Assembly: GCA_001805655.1 (NCBI GenBank)
Contig: MHGR01000091.1
Coordinates: 1-5,062 of the forward strand
Reading direction: 5' to 3'
Length of the DNA: 5,062 bases
Source of the DNA: Omnitrophica WOR_2 bacterium RIFCSPHIGHO2_02_FULL_52_10
GTDB lineage: Bacteria > Omnitrophota > Gorgyraeia > Zapsychrales > Zapsychraceae
The translations under genes and the position numbers were made by a program. Under the pieces are notes generated by a model. It saw only the letters and a list, made by a program, of their open reading frames with translations, ran no database searches and was not told where the DNA came from. Positions 1 through 5,046 of this stretch are shown in pieces. Numbering within the stretch: the stretch's first letter is position 1; every line of letters begins with the position of its first letter.

Positions 1-809
1 ATGTCCGTCTGCGCCGCGGCAAAAGTGCCATGGACATGAAGCGCTTCACTGTCATAGGTAACGCTGAGGTCCGCCGTGGAGAGGACACCGCCGGACAATT
101 CGACGAACAAAGGCGCATTGTGGGCAAGGGAGAGATAGCGGGCAAGATGGATATTGTTGAGCATGACCTGCGCGCTGAGATTTCTTGACATGAGGCTGTA
201 ATTGCCTTTGACCGAGGCGCTGGACTTCATATGCGGCGAGTCAACCGCGCCGACGAACCTGATTCCTTTGTTCAGCGAGAGCGTCGCATTGAGATTGATG
301 TTTTCAAAAGACTCGACAAACCCGCCTTCCTGCGTGCGGTCCACAAAAATAACCCTGCCGTTTTCCAGCGTGAATTTTCTTAACAGCAAAACCGGATATT
401 GCCGTTCCCCCAGCCGCTGCTCCAAGGTCAAGAGGTCGGAAAAATTCCATGTCCGGCTGTCCTGACGCTCGACGTAAATATACGGGTCTTTGATGCGGAT
501 GGCGGGGATGATCACGGCCTGGCGCCGGAAGACGGGCGCCAGCATGAGGTTAAAAGACAGCTGCTTGATCTTGATGAACGCCCTGGCGGGATCGTCCCTG
601 CGGGCGACGCCGATGTCATCGATCACAAACCCCTTGAGCAGCTTAAAATCCACGTTGCCGATATAAACTTTTCTCTGAAGGTACTTTTCCGCTTTGACCG
701 TGAGATATTGCTTGAACTGAATCGGCAGGAAGATTGTGTCGATGTAATAAAATACGGCAATCCCCAGCAGGGTGATGCTGAACAGCACAAAAGTGGCTTT
801 ACGATTCAT
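1..809 (-). CDS. AsmA-like envelope protein, N-terminal part (gene truncated by window edge)
   Basis: Reading leftward from the ATG at 809-807, the frame stays open for 269 codons and leaves the window without a stop. The protein begins with a positively charged tip (MNRK) and a hydrophobic segment at residues 6-22, a typical signal anchor. A long beta-rich region follows. Around residues 98-127 a stretch containing IRIKDPYIYVERQ and TWNFSDLL matches the AsmA pattern of a strand ending in 'P-x-hydrophobic' followed by 'W-N-F-x-D-L'. A second such strand lies near 145-157 (FTLENGRVIFVD). AsmA/TamB/DUF748-type proteins sit in the inner membrane, project into the periplasm, and are linked to lipid transport and outer-membrane assembly. 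An in-frame ATG also exists at 863-861, but it overlaps a possible -10 box and would put extra residues before the anchor, so 809 is preferred. Neither start has a clear Shine-Dalgarno. The family call is good; the exact subfamily is not resolved. Confidence 0.8.
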   Translation of the reverse strand, partial: MNRKATFVLFSITLLGIAVFYYIDTIFLPIQFKQYLTVKAEKYLQRKVYIGNVDFKLLKGFVIDDIGVARRDDPARAFIKIKQLSFNLMLAPVFRRQAVIIPAIRIKDPYIYVERQDSRTWNFSDLLTLEQRLGERQYPVLLLRKFTLENGRVIFVDRTQEGGFVESFENINLNATLSLNKGIRFVGAVDSPHMKSSASVKGNYSLMSRNLSAQVMLNNIHLARYLSLAHNAPLFVELSGGVLSTADLSVTYDSEALHVHGTFAAAQTD

Positions 810-863
810 TATTTTTATTATATAGGACTTTAAATGGCTATTCAATGTGATTCGTGACCCCAT

Positions 864-869
864 ATTATA
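864..869 (-). promoter_or_regulatory. Possible -10 box for the AsmA-like gene
   Basis: Read on the minus strand this is a perfect TATAAT, which would place transcription start near 857 and give a leader of about 48 nt before the ATG at 809. The region at the expected -35 position (887-892, TAATCT on the minus strand) is poor, so only half of the promoter is visible. AT-rich spacer sequence produces such hexamers by chance, hence the low confidence. Confidence 0.3.
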
Positions 870-921
870 GTGTTTTATAGATATTAAGATTAGTAGAATC
901 TGACCATTTGGGGCAAAAGTG

Positions 922-939
922 TAATTATTGCAATAATTA
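922..939. promoter_or_regulatory. 18-bp perfect palindrome, candidate operator
   Basis: The left half TAATTATTG is the exact reverse complement of the right half CAATAATTA, with no spacer. A continuous dyad of this length suits binding of a dimeric helix-turn-helix regulator. Its centre supplies the -35 element of the plus-strand promoter described next, which would suit repression by occlusion. No regulator gene is in the window, and I do not recognise it as the box of a named regulator. Chance is possible because the site is AT-rich. Confidence 0.45.
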
Positions 940-956
940 AGAGGAAATGATATACT
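928..956 (+). promoter_or_regulatory. Candidate sigma-70 promoter reading toward the stem-loop array and tRNA
   Basis: TTGCAA at 928-933 (4 of 6 to consensus) and TATACT at 951-956 (5 of 6) are separated by exactly 17 nt. Initiation near 963 would transcribe the inverted-repeat array and could run on into tRNA-Pro at 1510. No protein gene starts close downstream, so any product would be a non-coding or tRNA-precursor transcript. This is a sequence match only. Confidence 0.4.
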
Positions 957-1031
957 GGCCTCCTTCATGGGCAGGGTAGGCGGCGCGGGCGGAAAGATTT
1001 TATAGGAGAGACAGATTTTTCACTGCTATTT

Positions 1032-1056: not shown

Positions 1057-1151
1057 GCCCTCAAGACAGCGGAGCTGGATTGAGGGTCGGATAAGTAAAC
1101 AGTGTTTTTTTCATTTGCCCCCTGGCATGAAACGATAGGGGGCGAGAAAAT
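1056..1151. repeat. 96-bp direct repeat, copy 1
   Basis: This segment recurs at 1372-1467 with the same length and 7 substitutions (about 93% identity). It contains, in order, a stem-loop with arms CCCTCAA/TTGAGGG (1058-1064 and 1080-1086) and inner arms CAGC/GCTG around a GGA loop; a linker ending in a run of seven T (1105-1111); and a second stem-loop with arms GCCCCCT/AGGGGGC (1117-1123 and 1137-1143), followed by GAGAAAAT. In the first stem-loop the inner and outer stems are separated by GA on both strands, a tandem G-A internal loop. The two copies lead into different hairpins on the right, so the repeat ends at the AAAAT. Confidence 0.9.
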
Positions 1152-1206
1152 TGATTTCGGTTTAGACTTATGGAGCGTTAGCGAACATAAGTCTTAGCCA
1201 AAATCA
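1152..1206 (+). repeat. CTTATG-family stem-loop, copy 1
   Basis: Outer arms TGATTT/AAATCA (1152-1157 and 1201-1206) and inner arms GACTTATG/CATAAGTC (1165-1172 and 1186-1193) are joined by a GG/CC pair flanked by a T-G wobble and a T-T mismatch. The apical part reads GA, then GC, a GTTA loop, GC, then GAA. The same layout with a different outer-stem sequence occurs at 1305-1373, and in reverse orientation at 1460-1510 and 1761-1802. Confidence 0.85.
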
Positions 1207-1207
1207 T

Positions 1208-1234
1208 ACTCAAAACAGCTTTGCTGTTTTGAGT
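1208..1234. repeat. Perfect 12-bp stem-loop, variant of the CCCTCAA hairpin
   Basis: Arms ACTCAAAACAGC (1208-1219) and GCTGTTTTGAGT (1223-1234) pair fully around a TTT loop. Position by position this aligns with the hairpins at 1058-1086 and 1374-1402 (shared CTCAA, CAGC, GCTG, TTGAG). The internal GA/GA of those copies is replaced here by Watson-Crick AA/TT. The sequence after it, up to the T-run at 1253-1258, also resembles the linker of the 96-bp repeat. The T-run is 18 nt past the stem, too far for a terminator. Confidence 0.85.
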
Positions 1235-1268
1235 GCCAAAGAAAATAAACAGTTTTTTGTTTATATGT

Positions 1269-1298
1269 CGCCCCTCAGCACCGCTGTGCTTCGGGGCG
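1269..1298 (-). repeat. GC-rich stem-loop, array copy c
   Basis: Outer arms CGCCCC/GGGGCG (1269-1274 and 1293-1298) and inner arms AGCAC/GTGCT (1277-1281 and 1286-1290) enclose a CGCT loop. The internal loop is TC on both strands, so on the minus strand it reads GA/GA, the same as in other hairpins of the array. It occupies the same relative place as the GCCCCC hairpins: after a CAGT plus T-run and before an AAAAT stretch and a CTTATG hairpin. Confidence 0.8.
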
Positions 1299-1304
1299 AA
1301 AATT

Positions 1305-1373
1305 CGATATCGGTTTAAACTTATGGAGCCTGCGGATTGGTAGGCGGAACGACATAAGTTTTAGCCGATATCG
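1305..1373 (+). repeat. CTTATG-family stem-loop, copy 2
   Basis: The 21-nt arms 1305-1325 and 1353-1373 are reverse complements except for one T-G wobble and one T-T mismatch. Those two defects sit at the same stem positions as in copy 1 (1152-1206). The outer stem here is CGATATC rather than TGATTT, and a G-C pair of copy 1 (1165/1193) is A-T here (1318/1360), so both arms changed together. The apical region begins with GA, carries GCCT/AGGC (1328-1331 and 1342-1345) and ends in GGAACGA. Confidence 0.85.
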
Positions 1374-1467
1374 CCCTCAAGACAGCGGAGCTGGGTTGAG
1401 GGTCGGACAAGCATATAGTGTTTTTTTTATTTGCCCCCTGGCATAAAACGATAGGGGGCGAGAAAAT
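1372..1467. repeat. 96-bp direct repeat, copy 2
   Basis: This is the partner of 1056-1151. It carries the CCCTCAA/TTGAGGG hairpin (1374-1402), whose internal loop is GA/GG here; a run of eight T (1421-1428); the GCCCCCT/AGGGGGC hairpin (1433-1439 and 1453-1459); and the final GAGAAAAT (1460-1467). That last stretch becomes the 5' arm of the next hairpin. Substitutions fall mainly in the linker, while all paired arms are kept. Confidence 0.9.
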
Positions 1468-1510
1468 CTAACACTTATGTCGCTTCGCTCCATAAGTGTA
1501 AAATTTTCTC
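1460..1510 (-). repeat. CTTATG-family stem-loop, copy 3, abutting the tRNA
   Basis: Outer arms GAGAAAAT/ATTTTCTC (1460-1467 and 1503-1510) and inner arms ACACTTATG/CATAAGTGT (1471-1479 and 1491-1499) are separated by a 3-nt internal loop on each side. The apex read on the minus strand is GA-GCGAAGC-GA, which includes GCGAAGC, a heptamer known to form an exceptionally stable DNA mini-hairpin. It is inverted relative to copies 1 and 2. The last base of the 3' arm, C1510, is also base 1 of the tRNA. Confidence 0.8.
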
Positions 1511-1583
1511 GGGGAGTAGCGCAGCTGGCTAGCGCACATGCTTTGGGAGCATGGGGTCGGGGGTTCAAATCCCCCCTCCCCGA
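1510..1583 (+). tRNA. tRNA-Pro (anticodon UGG)
   Basis: A full cloverleaf can be drawn. The acceptor stem is CGGGGAG (1510-1516) with CTCCCCG (1576-1582) and discriminator A1583. The D-arm is GCGC/GCGC (1519-1522 and 1532-1535). The anticodon stem is CATGC/GCATG (1537-1541 and 1549-1553) with loop TTTGGGA and anticodon TGG at 1544-1546. The T-arm is GGGGG/CCCCC (1559-1563 and 1571-1575) with loop TTCAAAT. The C1-G72 pair, UGG anticodon and G37 are typical of bacterial proline tRNAs. CCA is not encoded (TTT follows), so CCA-adding enzyme would be needed. It reads proline CCN codons, mainly CCA and CCG. Confidence 0.95.
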
Positions 1584-1716
1584 TTTAGAAGCGAGGAGTC
1601 CTCCATGGGAGGACGACGAGCTTAAATCGTACTCGGGCTTCAACACAAATAGAAAAGCCCGAGTGCGACCAAGATTTTTGAAAAGTGTTCGTGGGCCCAG
1701 GGTTCTCCTGCTCCGC
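1584..1716 (+). repeat. Post-tRNA structured repeat, copy 1
   Basis: The segment begins just after the tRNA discriminator base and recurs, diverged, 246 bp downstream. It holds hairpin 1 (arms GTCCTCC/GGAGGAC at 1598-1604 and 1608-1614, loop ATG) and hairpin 2 (14-bp stem, 1627-1640 with 1655-1668, including ACTCGGGC/GCCCGAGT). The shared words CCAAGAT, TTTGAAAA and GGGTTCTCC (1700-1708) follow. Reading frames through it are tRNA-linked shadows with no recognisable protein. I do not recognise the element. Confidence 0.75.
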
Positions 1717-1738
1717 TTCAAAACTTGCGTTTGGAAGC
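1715..1738. repeat. Small inverted repeat between the two post-tRNA repeats
   Basis: Arms GCTTC/GAAGC and AAAC/GTTT pair around a TTGC loop, with one A-G mismatch between the two stem parts (A1720 and G1733). It lies between the end of repeat copy 1 and the CTTATG hairpin at 1761. Confidence 0.5.
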
Positions 1739-1760
1739 TTCGCAGGACGGCGTCGCTCAG

Positions 1761-1802
1761 CAGACTTATGTTCGCCCGCTTGCAGCGGGCTCCATAAGTC
1801 TG
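1761..1802 (-). repeat. CTTATG-family stem-loop, copy 4
   Basis: Perfect outer arms CAGACTTATG (1761-1770) and CATAAGTCTG (1793-1802) enclose perfect inner arms GCCCGCT/AGCGGGC (1774-1780 and 1784-1790) with a TGC loop. On the minus strand the internal loop reads GA on one side and GAA on the other, as in copy 1. It occupies the place where the body of a second tRNA would lie if the tRNA plus its downstream repeat had been duplicated as one unit. Confidence 0.85.
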
Positions 1803-1807
1803 GAGCT

Positions 1808-1832
1808 CCTTGAAATCCCTGCTCCCCGACCA
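1808..1832 (+). pseudogene. Decayed tRNA 3' end with CCA
   Basis: Over 25 positions this aligns without gaps to the tRNA-Pro T-loop and acceptor 3' strand. It shares AAATCCC and CTCCCCGA, and ends in CCA where the intact tRNA has TTT. The T-stem 5' side and the rest of a tRNA are absent: the acceptor partner GGGGAG is not found upstream, where the CTTATG hairpin sits instead. It is best read as a tRNA tail left by a tandem duplication or by displacement on insertion at the tRNA 3' end. Confidence 0.55.
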
Positions 1833-1961
1833 AGAAGCGAGGGCGAGCACATGGTGCGAGCCCGAGCTTTGGTCGTACTCGAACTACAACCTATTTAGAA
1901 AAGTTCGAGTGCGACCAAGATATTTGAAAAATATTAGCAGCCATGGGTTCTCCCGCTTTTC
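1833..1961 (+). repeat. Post-tRNA structured repeat, copy 2
   Basis: This is the partner of 1584-1716. Hairpin 1 has outer arms GGGC/GCCC (1841-1844 and 1860-1863), inner arms GCAC/GTGC (1847-1850 and 1854-1857), loop ATG, and GA on both sides between the stems. Hairpin 2 is a 17-bp stem (1869-1885 with 1902-1918) with one T-G wobble. Its core ACTCGAAC/GTTCGAGT differs from copy 1 by two compensated base pairs. The tail words CCAAGAT, TTTGAAAA and GGGTTCTCC (1945-1953) are kept. Confidence 0.75.
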
Positions 1962-2132: not shown

Positions 2133-3824
2133 ATGAGAATTGGAGAAGCCTTTCGCAGGGCCGGTTTAATCAGCTCTGACGCCCTGGAGTCCGCACTCAA
2201 GGAGCAGGAAAACAGCCACGACCGTTTAGGCGATATTTTCCTCCGCAACGGCCATGTGACCCAGAAAGACATGGCCCCTGTCCTCGCCGATTATTTTCAA
2301 ATCCCCTTCGTTAACCTCAAGGAAATCTACAAAGACCTGAAGCCGGAAATCATCGACCTGATATCCTCCGATCTGGCCAAGCGGTTTACCGCCATCCCCA
2401 TCGACCAAAAAGACGGCCAATTGACCATCGCGATTGCCGACCCTTTAAACCTGCAGGCGATAGACACCATCCGCTTAAGAACGGGGCTGAAAATTCAATG
2501 CGTCGTGGCCGTTGAGAGCGAAATTCAGGAAGCCGTTGAATATTGCTATCATCACCTGCCCCGCCTGAAGGAGAATATCGACAGCTTCATTGAGCTGGAA
2601 GTTCGGGAAAGCGCGGAATCGGATAAAGGGGGGGACGGCGGCGTTCAGTTCGGCGCGGACGACCAGCCGGTCGTGCAGTATGTCAAATCGTTGATCATTC
2701 AGGCCGTCAATAACCGGGCCAGCGACATTCATTTGCAGCCCAAGCAAAACAACACGGAGCTGCGCCTGCGCATCGACGGCATCCTTTACCATAATGATCC
2801 GCCCCCCAAGGCCATGCTGACGGCCATCAGCGCCCGCATAAAAATTCTTTCCGGTCTGGATATTGCCGAAAAACGCCTTCCGCAGGACGGCCGCTTCAGG
2901 GTCATGCTCGGCAGCACCCAGGTGGATATCCGCACGTCCTGCTTTCCCACCATTTACGGGGAAAGCGTTGTTCTGCGTATCCTGGACACCTCCGCCCCGC
3001 TGCTGGGGCTGGAACAGCTGGGCTTCAACGCGCGGGACCTGGAGCAATACCGGCGCATTGTCCGCTTTCCTTACGGCCTGGTCCTGGTGACGGGCCCGAC
3101 CGGCAGCGGCAAGACCACGACTTTGTACACGACGCTCAACGAAATCAAGTCAGCCGATAAAAATATCATCACTCTGGAAGACCCGGTGGAATACATGCTG
3201 CCGTTCATCCAGCAGTCGCAGGTCAATGCCGGCATCGGGTTTGATTTTGCCCGGGGATTGAGGTCCATTTTGCGCCAGGACCCGGACATCATCATGGTCG
3301 GCGAAATCCGCGACAAAGAGACCGCGGAAATCGCGATTCACGCCGCTTTGACCGGGCACTTGGTCTTTGCCACTTTGCATACCAATGACGCCGCCGGGGC
3401 GCCGGTGCGTTTGATTAACATGGGATTGGAGCCGTTTTTGATTACGTCGTCTCTGCTCGGTGTCGTGGCGCAGAGGCTGGTGCGGATCGTCTGCCACGAA
3501 TGCCGCGGGCACTATGAGGTGCCGAAGGCCGAGCTGGACAGGTTATCCCTGGACGCGAGCTATAAAAAACTTTGGAAAGGCGCGGGCTGCCCCAAATGCA
3601 TGAACAGCGGTTACAAAGGAAGAAAAGGGATTTATGAATTCCTGGTTCCCAATGAGAATCTCCGGAAATTGATTTTGAACAACAGTTCCAGCGAAGAAAT
3701 CCGCATGGCCGCCCAAAAGGCGGGCATGACGACGCTGCGCCAGGCCGGTCTGGACAAGCTCAAGAGCGGCGAAACGACGCTGGAAGAAATCTTGCGCATA
3801 ACCCAGGAGACCGAGGAGCATTAA
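2133..3824 (+). CDS. gspE: GspE/PilB-family assembly ATPase (type II secretion or type IV pilus)
   Basis: The 563-residue protein is a cytoplasmic hexameric ATPase that powers pseudopilus or pilus assembly by acting on the inner-membrane platform protein. The N-terminal MshEN/T2SSE_N domain spans residues 1-140, with two 24-residue motifs at 2-25 (RIG...G10-L-I...Q) and 31-54 (RLG...), separated by five residues. The N2 domain follows, with SDIHLQP (197-203) and RLRIDG (211-216). The motor domain has Walker A GPTGSGKTT (321-329, K327), an Asp box ITLEDPVEY (346-354), Walker B DPDIIMVGE (383-391, E391) and a His box ending HLVFATLHTND (409-419). A zinc tetracysteine is present (C454, C457, C486, C489), as in GspE/PilB assembly ATPases and lacking in PilT-type retraction motors. 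The gene is intact and 1 nt upstream of gspF. Length and MshEN fit PilB as well as GspE, so the choice between secretion and pilus is open. Confidence 0.95.
   Translation: MRIGEAFRRAGLISSDALESALKEQENSHDRLGDIFLRNGHVTQKDMAPVLADYFQIPFVNLKEIYKDLKPEIIDLISSDLAKRFTAIPIDQKDGQLTIAIADPLNLQAIDTIRLRTGLKIQCVVAVESEIQEAVEYCYHHLPRLKENIDSFIELEVRESAESDKGGDGGVQFGADDQPVVQYVKSLIIQAVNNRASDIHLQPKQNNTELRLRIDGILYHNDPPPKAMLTAISARIKILSGLDIAEKRLPQDGRFRVMLGSTQVDIRTSCFPTIYGESVVLRILDTSAPLLGLEQLGFNARDLEQYRRIVRFPYGLVLVTGPTGSGKTTTLYTTLNEIKSADKNIITLEDPVEYMLPFIQQSQVNAGIGFDFARGLRSILRQDPDIIMVGEIRDKETAEIAIHAALTGHLVFATLHTNDAAGAPVRLINMGLEPFLITSSLLGVVAQRLVRIVCHECRGHYEVPKAELDRLSLDASYKKLWKGAGCPKCMNSGYKGRKGIYEFLVPNENLRKLILNNSSSEEIRMAAQKAGMTTLRQAGLDKLKSGETTLEEILRITQETEEH
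3813..3818 (+). promoter_or_regulatory. Ribosome binding site supporting a TTG start for gspF
   Basis: GAGGAG lies within the last codons of the ATPase gene, 7 nt before the TTG at 3826. With only one base between the upstream stop (3822-3824) and this start, translation of the two genes is likely coupled. The next in-frame candidates downstream would cut into the conserved N-terminus. Confidence 0.7.
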
Positions 3825-3825
3825 A

Positions 3826-5046
3826 TTGGAATACCAATGCGCCGCCAAAACGAAGGACGGGAAACGCGTCAGCCGCCTGCTGACCGCTGAAAACCCTGCC
3901 GATGTCATCGCGCAGCTGCGCGGGGAGGGGCTGCTGCCGATCAAGATCAACAAAAAATCCGCTTCCAACGGCAAAACAAAAAGGAAATGGCCGGCGCTGG
4001 AAGCCGGCCGGGTCAAGCCGAAGGAATTGGCGGTGTTCACGCGGCAGCTCGGCGTCACGCTGACGGCGGGGCTGCTGTTGACCGAGGCCCTGGAGGCGAT
4101 TTCCGATGATTTGGAAAACGAATATTTCCGCAACATCATCCTCAAAATCAGGATGGACGTGCACTGCGGCACGGATTTATCGGCCGCCCTGGCGAAATAC
4201 CCCAAGATTTTTTCGCCGACCTACCGGGCCATCGTGAAGGTGGGCGAGGCCACGGGCAGGCTGTATAAAACGCTGACGAACCTCGCCAGGTACCTGGAGG
4301 ACACCGAGCGGCTGAAGGACAAAGTCAAGTCCGCCGTCCGCTATCCCCTGTTCGTGATGTGCTTCGCGGCTCTGGTCATGTTCATCATGGTCTTCTTTCT
4401 CATCCCGCAGTTCGCGGGCATGTTCAGCGACTTCCACGCCGAGCTGCCGCTCTTGACGCGCATGGTCGTGGCGTTCAGCAATTTTTGCGTGAGACATGTT
4501 GGGCTGTGCCTGGCGGGGCTGTCCGCCCTGTGGCTGGCCTATGTCTATCTCAAGCGCTACCGCAGGTTTCAGTATATCCTGGATTTTCTCAAGCTCAAGC
4601 TGCCGATTGTCGGCAAGAACATCATCCACAAGTCCCTGCTGTCCGCGTATTGCCGCACCCTGGGGTTCATGCTTTCCGCCGGGGTGAACCTGAAGACCTC
4701 GCTGGAGGTGACCTCGCAGGTGGTTGACCACCTGATCATGAGCCAGGCGATTGACCACATCAGCCGCCGGGTCGTGGCCGGCGGCACGCTGTCCGAAGAG
4801 ATGCGCCGGCAGAAGATTTTCACCGGCCTCTCCGCCAAGATGACCCATGTGGGGGAGCGCACCGGCCAGCTCAGCGACATGCTCGAGCGGACATCGCAGT
4901 ATTACGAAGATGAACTGGAAGTGACGCTGAACAATTTGACGGCCCTGCTTGAACCGGCGCTGATCATCTTTGTCGGCATCAACGTCCTGATTGTCGTTTT
5001 GGCGCTGTATCTGCCGATTTTCCATCTGTCGACGGCGATCAGGTAG
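3826..5046 (+). CDS. gspF: GspF/PilC-family inner-membrane platform protein
   Basis: The 406-residue polytopic protein forms the inner-membrane platform on which the ATPase acts to add pilin or pseudopilin subunits. The start is TTG, backed by a good ribosome binding site. The N-terminus (EYQCAAKTKDGK) is the usual beta-hairpin leader of the family. Two T2SSF domains are visible as an internal duplication: FTRQLGVTLTAG (71-82) with VGEATGR (139-145), and CRTLGFMLSAG (276-286) with VGERTGQ (342-348). Membrane segments lie near residues 175-196, 226-243 and 378-399. LLEPALI (374-380) is the conserved start of the last one. Length matches the usual 400 or so residues. It is co-transcribed with gspE at a 1-nt gap. 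In such operons a major pilin or pseudopilin gene often follows, but it lies outside the window. The sequence cannot decide between secretion and pilus. Confidence 0.95.
   Translation: MEYQCAAKTKDGKRVSRLLTAENPADVIAQLRGEGLLPIKINKKSASNGKTKRKWPALEAGRVKPKELAVFTRQLGVTLTAGLLLTEALEAISDDLENEYFRNIILKIRMDVHCGTDLSAALAKYPKIFSPTYRAIVKVGEATGRLYKTLTNLARYLEDTERLKDKVKSAVRYPLFVMCFAALVMFIMVFFLIPQFAGMFSDFHAELPLLTRMVVAFSNFCVRHVGLCLAGLSALWLAYVYLKRYRRFQYILDFLKLKLPIVGKNIIHKSLLSAYCRTLGFMLSAGVNLKTSLEVTSQVVDHLIMSQAIDHISRRVVAGGTLSEEMRRQKIFTGLSAKMTHVGERTGQLSDMLERTSQYYEDELEVTLNNLTALLEPALIIFVGINVLIVVLALYLPIFHLSTAIR

Follow-up and report, generated by a model that had tools for sequence, protein, structure and literature searches.

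Four GA-stepped hairpins around a tRNA-Pro gene of an Omnitrophota bacterium belong to a dispersed repeat family with features of folded single-stranded DNA

The end hairpins of IS200/IS605 elements and the attC sites of integrons are folded single-stranded DNAs that are recognized through unpaired landmark bases while their sequence varies, and attC sites carry RYYYAAC/GTTRRRY boxes. Repetitive extragenic palindromes (REPs) and bacterial interspersed mosaic elements (BIMEs), of the GTAG and CGTC families, are short palindromes scattered through genomes, whose stems change in pairs while unpaired letters are conserved; they occur between genes singly, as inverted dimers and in clusters. Bacterial miniature inverted-repeat transposable elements (MITEs) such as NEMIS, ERIC and RUP are short elements with inverted ends that adjoin genes (both in PMC3733652). 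The stretch of DNA analyzed here (the window) comprises positions 1 to 5,062 of contig MHGR01000091.1 from Omnitrophica WOR_2 bacterium RIFCSPHIGHO2_02_FULL_52_10, the genome of which is 1.56 Mb long and 76% complete. Approximately 800 bases surrounding the tRNA-Pro gene of the window are occupied by hairpins whose stems are interrupted by unpaired GA letters opposite GA or GAA. Four of the seven hairpins named in the first-pass annotation belong to one dispersed family, the covariance model of which (R1) has matches in 197 of the 285 genomes searched in the window's phylum. With a probability of about one half, the members of this family are non-autonomous mobile palindromes that act as folded single-stranded DNA recognized by an enzyme.

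The GA hairpins share with REPs and BIMEs all the features listed above, their intergenic position being read from the sequence and uncounted. They differ in that they are longer and multistep, with GA/GA(A) steps and a GNA/GNNA tip, in that G-T pairs are not clearly favored, and in that nearly all motif matches were seen in one candidate phylum. Furthermore, they have neither a linked RAYT that could be found nor a GTAG or CGTC foot: in a profile of 136 copies that extends 28 nt upstream of the core and 34 nt beyond its downstream end (L145 and L178 excluded, as their flanks are without lower stems), the palindrome ends read TTAAATGAG and TCCC. The resemblance to MITEs lies in the short elements with inverted ends adjoining genes. 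MITEs share fixed terminal inverted repeats with a parent transposon, whereas the ends of the GA elements are folded hairpins with variable outer stems, accompanied by no recurrent gene and no short target duplication or parent transposase that could be shown. The hairpins are likely to be REP/MITE-like elements without a REP foot. In their unpaired landmark bases and varying sequence they also resemble IS200/IS605 ends and attC sites, and here too recognition may depend on such bases; unlike IS200/IS605, they are linked to no Y1 gene, and attC boxes, the one attC feature compared, were not seen in the flank profile of the main family. The GC-GNA-GC or GC-GNNA-GC tip is the motif of d(GCGNAGC)-type mini-hairpins (PMC4686876), a chemical motif rather than a genomic element, which the repeat family studied here combines with GA steps in tandem.

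Genome searches seeded with the core CTTATG-GAGC...GCGAA-CATAAG and with window DNA both gave further copies, and pattern and covariance-model searches located such copies in the host genome and its relatives, a check for which the first-pass annotation had asked. The discovery pattern was CTTAYGGAGCN{2,32}GCGAACRTAAG. Alignment A1 holds 74 of the 83 copies with loops of 3 to 4 nt, while long-loop copies and the window's own genome stand outside it; four copies with another lower stem (L079, L097, L107 and L120) and five in loci already represented (L121 twice, L160, L163 and L165) were dropped. The 74 copies fold as TTAAT-GA-GGCC-A-CAACTTATG-GA-GC-loop-GC-GAA-CATAAGTTG-NNN-GGCC-GA-ATTAA, which is longer than the fold originally seen in the window. 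From the base upward, a variable stem of about 5 bp, a GA/GA step, a variable stem of about 4 bp and a 1x3 loop are followed by a 9-bp stem with the core CTTAYG, a GA/GAA step, GC and, in most copies, a GNA or GNNA loop. Stem cells are paired in 97.8% of cases, and 13 of the 20 stem pairs have changed on both sides. In the complete fold, 234 compensatory cells were counted, compared with 65.8 +/- 6.3 in shuffles, so that the covariation check proposed for these hairpins came out in favor of a conserved fold; when partners are shifted, pairing falls to 19-34%. As the discovery motif fixes the upper GA/GAA step, the CTTAYG core and the two tip G-C pairs, these are conserved by construction. The lower two stems and their GA/GA step lie outside the search pattern, and there 96% of cells are paired and nine of nine stem pairs have changed on both sides.

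Further hairpins are nested within some copies. In L392, L393 and L397 the 1x3 internal loop is enlarged by a second GC-GAA-GC or GC-GTAA-GC mini-hairpin (by eye), and in copies of genomes G232, G236 and G226 the hairpin loop is enlarged by the palindrome CCTGCCTGCCGGCAGGCAGG or its relatives, a repeat nested in a repeat.

It had been suggested from the window that constancy lies in the unpaired GA and not in the stems. Among 55 copies in which the discovery motif is absent, GA letters show 89-100% conservation and 20 of 40 stem positions less than 80% (lowest, 44%), but other stem letters, chiefly those of the CTTA..TAAG core, equal the GA in conservation. The suggestion therefore applies to the stems that vary while keeping their pairing and does not extend to this core. 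Since the model that picked the 55 copies was trained on GA copies, their GA conservation is support rather than proof. Among the 393 2x2 internal loops in 555 kb surrounding 80 loci of relatives that had been picked for carrying the motif, GA/GA is also the commonest (107; the next reaches 14 and a reversed-sequence control 1). Unselected DNA of the host genome (160 kb) contains 90 such loops, only 3 of them GA/GA, so the excess goes with the repeats.

The pairing and the loops of the family have a DNA-type signature. The variable stem pairs of the 74 hairpins include 16 G-T and 12 A-C pairs (p = 0.57 against equality), and 138 model-found copies have 39 and 29, respectively, whereas 108 tRNAs encoded in the fetched loci, filtered for well-paired stems, have 55 and 4 in their stems (Fisher p = 1.3e-4 versus the hairpins). 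This comparison offers a cheap discriminator between DNA-level and RNA-level structure for any repeat family. The loops of 136 copies include 62 with four bases, of which 55 are GNNA, and the third base is a pyrimidine in 24 of these 55, which points to the DNA rule and not to RNA GNRA. Likewise, triloops are GNA in 17 of 21 cases, and eleven-base loops have GA at both start and end in 25 of 35 (e.g., GA-GT-GAA-AC-GA), repeating the rule inside the loop. The GNA and GNNA loops sit on two G-C pairs, which are fixed by the search motif; on at least two G-C pairs, such loops form extraordinarily stable DNA mini-hairpins (PMC4686876). Overall, judged by its G-T to A-C ratio, GNA/GNNA loops and GA-bounded eleven-base loops, what has been conserved resembles single-stranded DNA in its folded state. 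This agrees in part with the earlier proposal that a folded single strand is the functional or propagating form; that the elements are recognized and move as a single strand is our inference.

The discovery pattern itself is present in 60 of the 285 genomes, while the reversed pattern is present in none. Copy numbers are minima, with at most 17 model matches scored per genome. At least 117 stretches from named genomes carry the core motif, and those listed comprise 110 from Candidatus Omnitrophota, four without an assigned phylum and one each from Peregrinibacteriota, Planctomycetota and Bacillota. A viral collection, consulted with viral spread in mind, contained one stretch with the motif. 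Rfam 15 returned nothing above gathering score except tRNA for the window and 19 loci, and no paper on such Omnitrophota repeats was found in the literature searched, the coverage of which left out most subscription journals, so that their absence from print is unproven. In the planctomycete Candidatus Scalindua rubra, three convergent hairpin pairs occur at 5218-7023 of L116, which may reflect transfer between phyla.

Neighboring copies are arranged in a characteristic manner. A model search of 92 loci (multi-hit loci used, except L035 and L058, duplicates of L087 and L090) gave 49 pairs of matches within 350 nt, of which 38 are convergent, 9 tandem and 2 divergent. The gap of the convergent pairs has a median of 57 bases and a maximum of 253, and many of the copies listed have an inverted repeat CCC...GGG inside the pair (no count). 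As pairs are mostly convergent, each DNA strand has a GA hairpin toward its 5' end. Tandem arrays of hairpins occur as well. Occupancy of individual sites also changes: between the acylphosphatase gene (PF00708) and tRNA-Pro of one genus, an insert of approximately 110 bases that includes the hairpin is present in G069 and missing from G145 and G125. Of 20 such sites fetched, six have model matches with differing stems and 14 have none, the neighboring genes not being the same in all 14. This shows turnover at the site, with gain and loss not separated.

According to the reading favored here, that of mobile palindromes recognized as folded single-stranded DNA, the elements would fold when DNA becomes single-stranded during replication, repair or transfer, and tandem sheared G.A pairs together with the compact GNA/GNNA tip would yield a rigid hairpin. 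A putative enzyme would read this hairpin by its shape, cut it and copy the element elsewhere. Selection would then bear on shape more than on sequence, which would allow paired changes to accumulate in the outer stems while GA is retained. If so, one bacterial phylum harbors many natural DNA hairpins on whose shape selection acts. Whether folds of single-stranded DNA function in cells could then be tested from sequence, and a ready substrate series would be at hand for isolating a shape-reading DNA enzyme. A wider version, in which transposable hairpins are read by shape throughout the phylum, with GA steps and GNA/GNNA tips as a DNA-only code, a non-Y1 enzyme and outer stems free to change, is put forward tentatively and is somewhat doubtful.

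Several observations weigh against mobility and recognition. No mobilizing enzyme was found in the Y1 and GIY-YIG neighborhoods or among the open reading frames (ORFs) flanking copies. The filled and empty sites could reflect loss instead of gain, and there is no clear short target duplication, none being evident at the G069 site. Among the loops, 7 of the 62 with four bases and 4 of the 21 with three depart from the GNA/GNNA rule, the filter applied to the tRNA yardstick lowered its A-C count, and the conservation of motif-fixed letters in the 74 copies follows from the way they were found. Moreover, many copies (uncounted) abut T-runs or the AGGAGG(-ATG) of a neighboring gene, and the array stands just upstream of seven fetched tRNA-Pro genes in three of five genomes of the window's genus, both of which suit a transcribed role.

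Such a role would make the repeats multiplied RNA elements, that is, leader, terminator or processing hairpins of mRNAs or tRNA-Pro precursors with selection on the RNA fold. The window contains a promoter-like site at 928-956 (one found, compared with 1.5 in shuffles). However, G-U is not clearly above A-C, the GNNA loops admit pyrimidines at the third base and Rfam offered no match apart from tRNA. Since pairs are convergent, one hairpin of two would read UC/UUC in any transcript. An RNA origin of the conservation is therefore unlikely, although it deserves to be taken seriously.

Alternatively, the hairpins could be neutral palindromes, neither mobile nor recognized, that are kept perfect by template switching during replication (quasipalindrome correction). 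Under this process compensation would be rapid and strictly Watson-Crick, with no G-T intermediates, a pattern seen between species at one site. However, correction would erase the GA steps, and these persist, as does a T.T mismatch low in the A-type hairpin in 14 copies (all ending in TTAG; the search pattern required T.T), which is also found in the lower part of the hairpin at 1152-1206. Neutral correction, which moreover leaves the same core at many unrelated loci unexplained, is considered quite improbable.

A more specific form of mobility, mobilization of canonical REP sequences by RAYT (TnpA_REP, a Y1 HUH transposase), had been raised in the first-pass annotation. Dispersed palindromes, convergent dimers and clusters are as in REPs and BIMEs, and Y1_Tnp is common, with matches in 232 of 285 genomes; the genome of the window has two. 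REPs are frequently found flanking their tnpA_REP (PMC6006769). Here, however, only one model match was found in 47 Y1 neighborhoods (138.7 kb), approximately the background density expected by chance; this match, of 38 bits, lies in L211. Of the 197 genomes with model matches about 165 also have Y1 matches, as have about 67 of the 88 without (tables compared by eye), and no Y1 match was found in the hairpin-rich genomes G232, G210, G226 and G262, some of which are incomplete. With the REP foot also missing from the flank profile, the Y1 proposal was abandoned, and canonical REP mobilization is regarded as very unlikely. The search for other recurrent genes gave no candidate, as similar ORFs lying within 1.5 kb of copies form clusters of six loci at most.

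That the hairpins are the ends of a GIY-YIG nuclease element, with most copies being deletion derivatives, is hardly credible: a GIY-YIG frame lies between convergent hairpins in L133, such genes stand beside tRNA genes in L014 and L278 (by eye) and generic GA/GA hairpins occur within about 65 bases of a GIY-YIG match in 4 of 70 loci (L267, L272, L280 and L301), but only two weak model matches (23 and 16 bits) fall within 100 bases of the gene in these 70 neighborhoods, 885 kb of hairpin loci contain 3 GIY-YIG matches (reduced query set) and the domain is near-universal (282 of 285 genomes). The 70 neighborhoods have seven model matches in total at E up to 1, and this weak linkage led to the rejection of GIY-YIG as the mobility gene. 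The L133 frame has 95 codons (PF01541, 62.8 bits), no ATG before the domain and a model hairpin beside it; the left hairpin of its convergent pair was identified by eye.

Within the window (Table 1), a scan for stem-GA-stem-loop-stem-GA(A)-stem gave six merged sites in 1001-2000 and none elsewhere, while 300 dinucleotide shuffles gave a mean of 0.02 and a maximum of 1. The seven hairpins had been described as one superfamily with a single architecture. All seven have an identical fold under RNA and DNA energy parameters, and by folds and motif scan six of them follow the full rule; the exception is 1305-1373, which has GA on the 5' side and a 3' loop of seven nucleotides (GGAACGA). Four (1152-1206, 1305-1373, 1460-1510 and 1761-1802) form one homologous family, as they match one covariance model, whereas 1058-1086, 1269-1298 and 1841-1863 have the rule in common but not the sequence. 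The nested hairpin at 1589-1623 was missed by the scans, which need an outer stem of 4 beside each step.

Table 1. Genes and hairpins of the window
Position	Strand	Feature	Basis and remarks
3-968	-	DUF748/AsmA-like gene	
1058..1086	+	B-type hairpin CCCTCAA-GA-CAGC-GGA-GCTG-GA-TTGAGGG, GNA triloop	Fold and scan
1152..1206	+	A-type hairpin, GA/GAA step, core 1164-1194	R1 model match 1147-1213, 56.8 bits
1208..1234	+	Hairpin in B position of second unit	Perfect palindrome without GA step
1268..1299	-	C-type hairpin, GA/GA	Fold and scan; 1269-1298 in the first-pass annotation
1305..1373	+	A-type hairpin, GA opposite 7-nt loop	R1 model match 1300-1380, 32.0 bits
1374..1402	+	Second B-type copy, of 1058-1086	GA/GG, a departure from the rule
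1460..1510	-	Inverted A-type hairpin, GA/GA, GC-GAA-GC tip, rule matched at 1471-1499	R1 model match 1452-1516, 39.6 bits; abuts tRNA-Pro
1509..1584	+	tRNA-Pro (TGG)	ARAGORN, Rfam; hairpin array stands ahead of it
1589..1623	+	Nested hairpin AAGC-GA-G-GA-GTCCTCC-ATG-GGAGGAC-GA-C-GA-GCTT, two serial GA/GA steps	By eye
1761..1802	-	Hairpin, GA/GAA, 7-bp GC-rich tip	R1 model match 1741-1818, 47.5 bits
1835..1869	+	Nested hairpin, two serial GA/GA steps, outer AAGC/GCTT, inner 1841-1863	Fold and scan
2133-3824		T2SSE (PilB-type) ATPase gene	
3826-5046		T2SSF (PilC-type) gene	

Among the five genomes of the window's genus, G000, G326 and G327 have matches beside tRNA-Pro, G272 has a match in a fetched stretch without tRNA, and G328 has none. 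Seven of nine possible tRNA-Pro genes were fetched from the first three genomes, covering all three anticodons, and each is preceded by an A hairpin, a B-position hairpin, a GC-rich C hairpin and an inverted A hairpin (by eye); this sample is biased, as it was found via similarity to the array. The B hairpin at 1058-1086 has two further copies on contig C48 (L031) and a relative in L079, where CAGC/GCTG is replaced by CAAC/GTTG and the loop GGA by GAA. The last A hairpin, at 1460-1510, likewise has an L079 counterpart upstream of tRNA-Pro, with a compensatory change from CTTATG/CATAAG to CTTACG/CGTAAG. The window array is likely to be one convergent-pair element (A-B-C-inverted A) whose inner units have been tandemly repeated, and it was probably placed by insertion and later duplicated together with tRNA genes. 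In L381, an interrupted tRNA copy and then the intact gene follow the array.

The GA-step rule may extend beyond the R1 model family. An unrelated palindrome with the same rule, TGTCATCCT-GA-GC-GAA-GC-GA-AGGATGACA, is located at 235-263 of L188, approximately 1.2 kb from a Y1 match, and similar palindromes are widespread in other phyla.

Parts of tRNA genes are repeated near several arrays. Repeats of the tRNA 5' part lie beside some copies (by eye): in L062, L134, L053, L055, L278 and L381, copies or inserts stand beside repeated 5' parts of about 12-45 nt, and in L053, L055 and L278 the position is identical, following AGCT or GGCT, which would suit tRNA genes being a preferred target. In L014 (G000:C63), around 1248-1720, a GIY-YIG-like frame (by eye) has a degenerate tRNA-Asp-like copy on one side and an intact tRNA-Asp on the other, after which GA hairpins and another tRNA-tail copy follow. 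In the window, the 3' end of tRNA-Pro and the stretch following it are repeated 246 bases downstream, with a nested GA hairpin of their own (82% identity between 1564-1596 and 1810-1842; 76% between 1604-1689 and 1850-1935).

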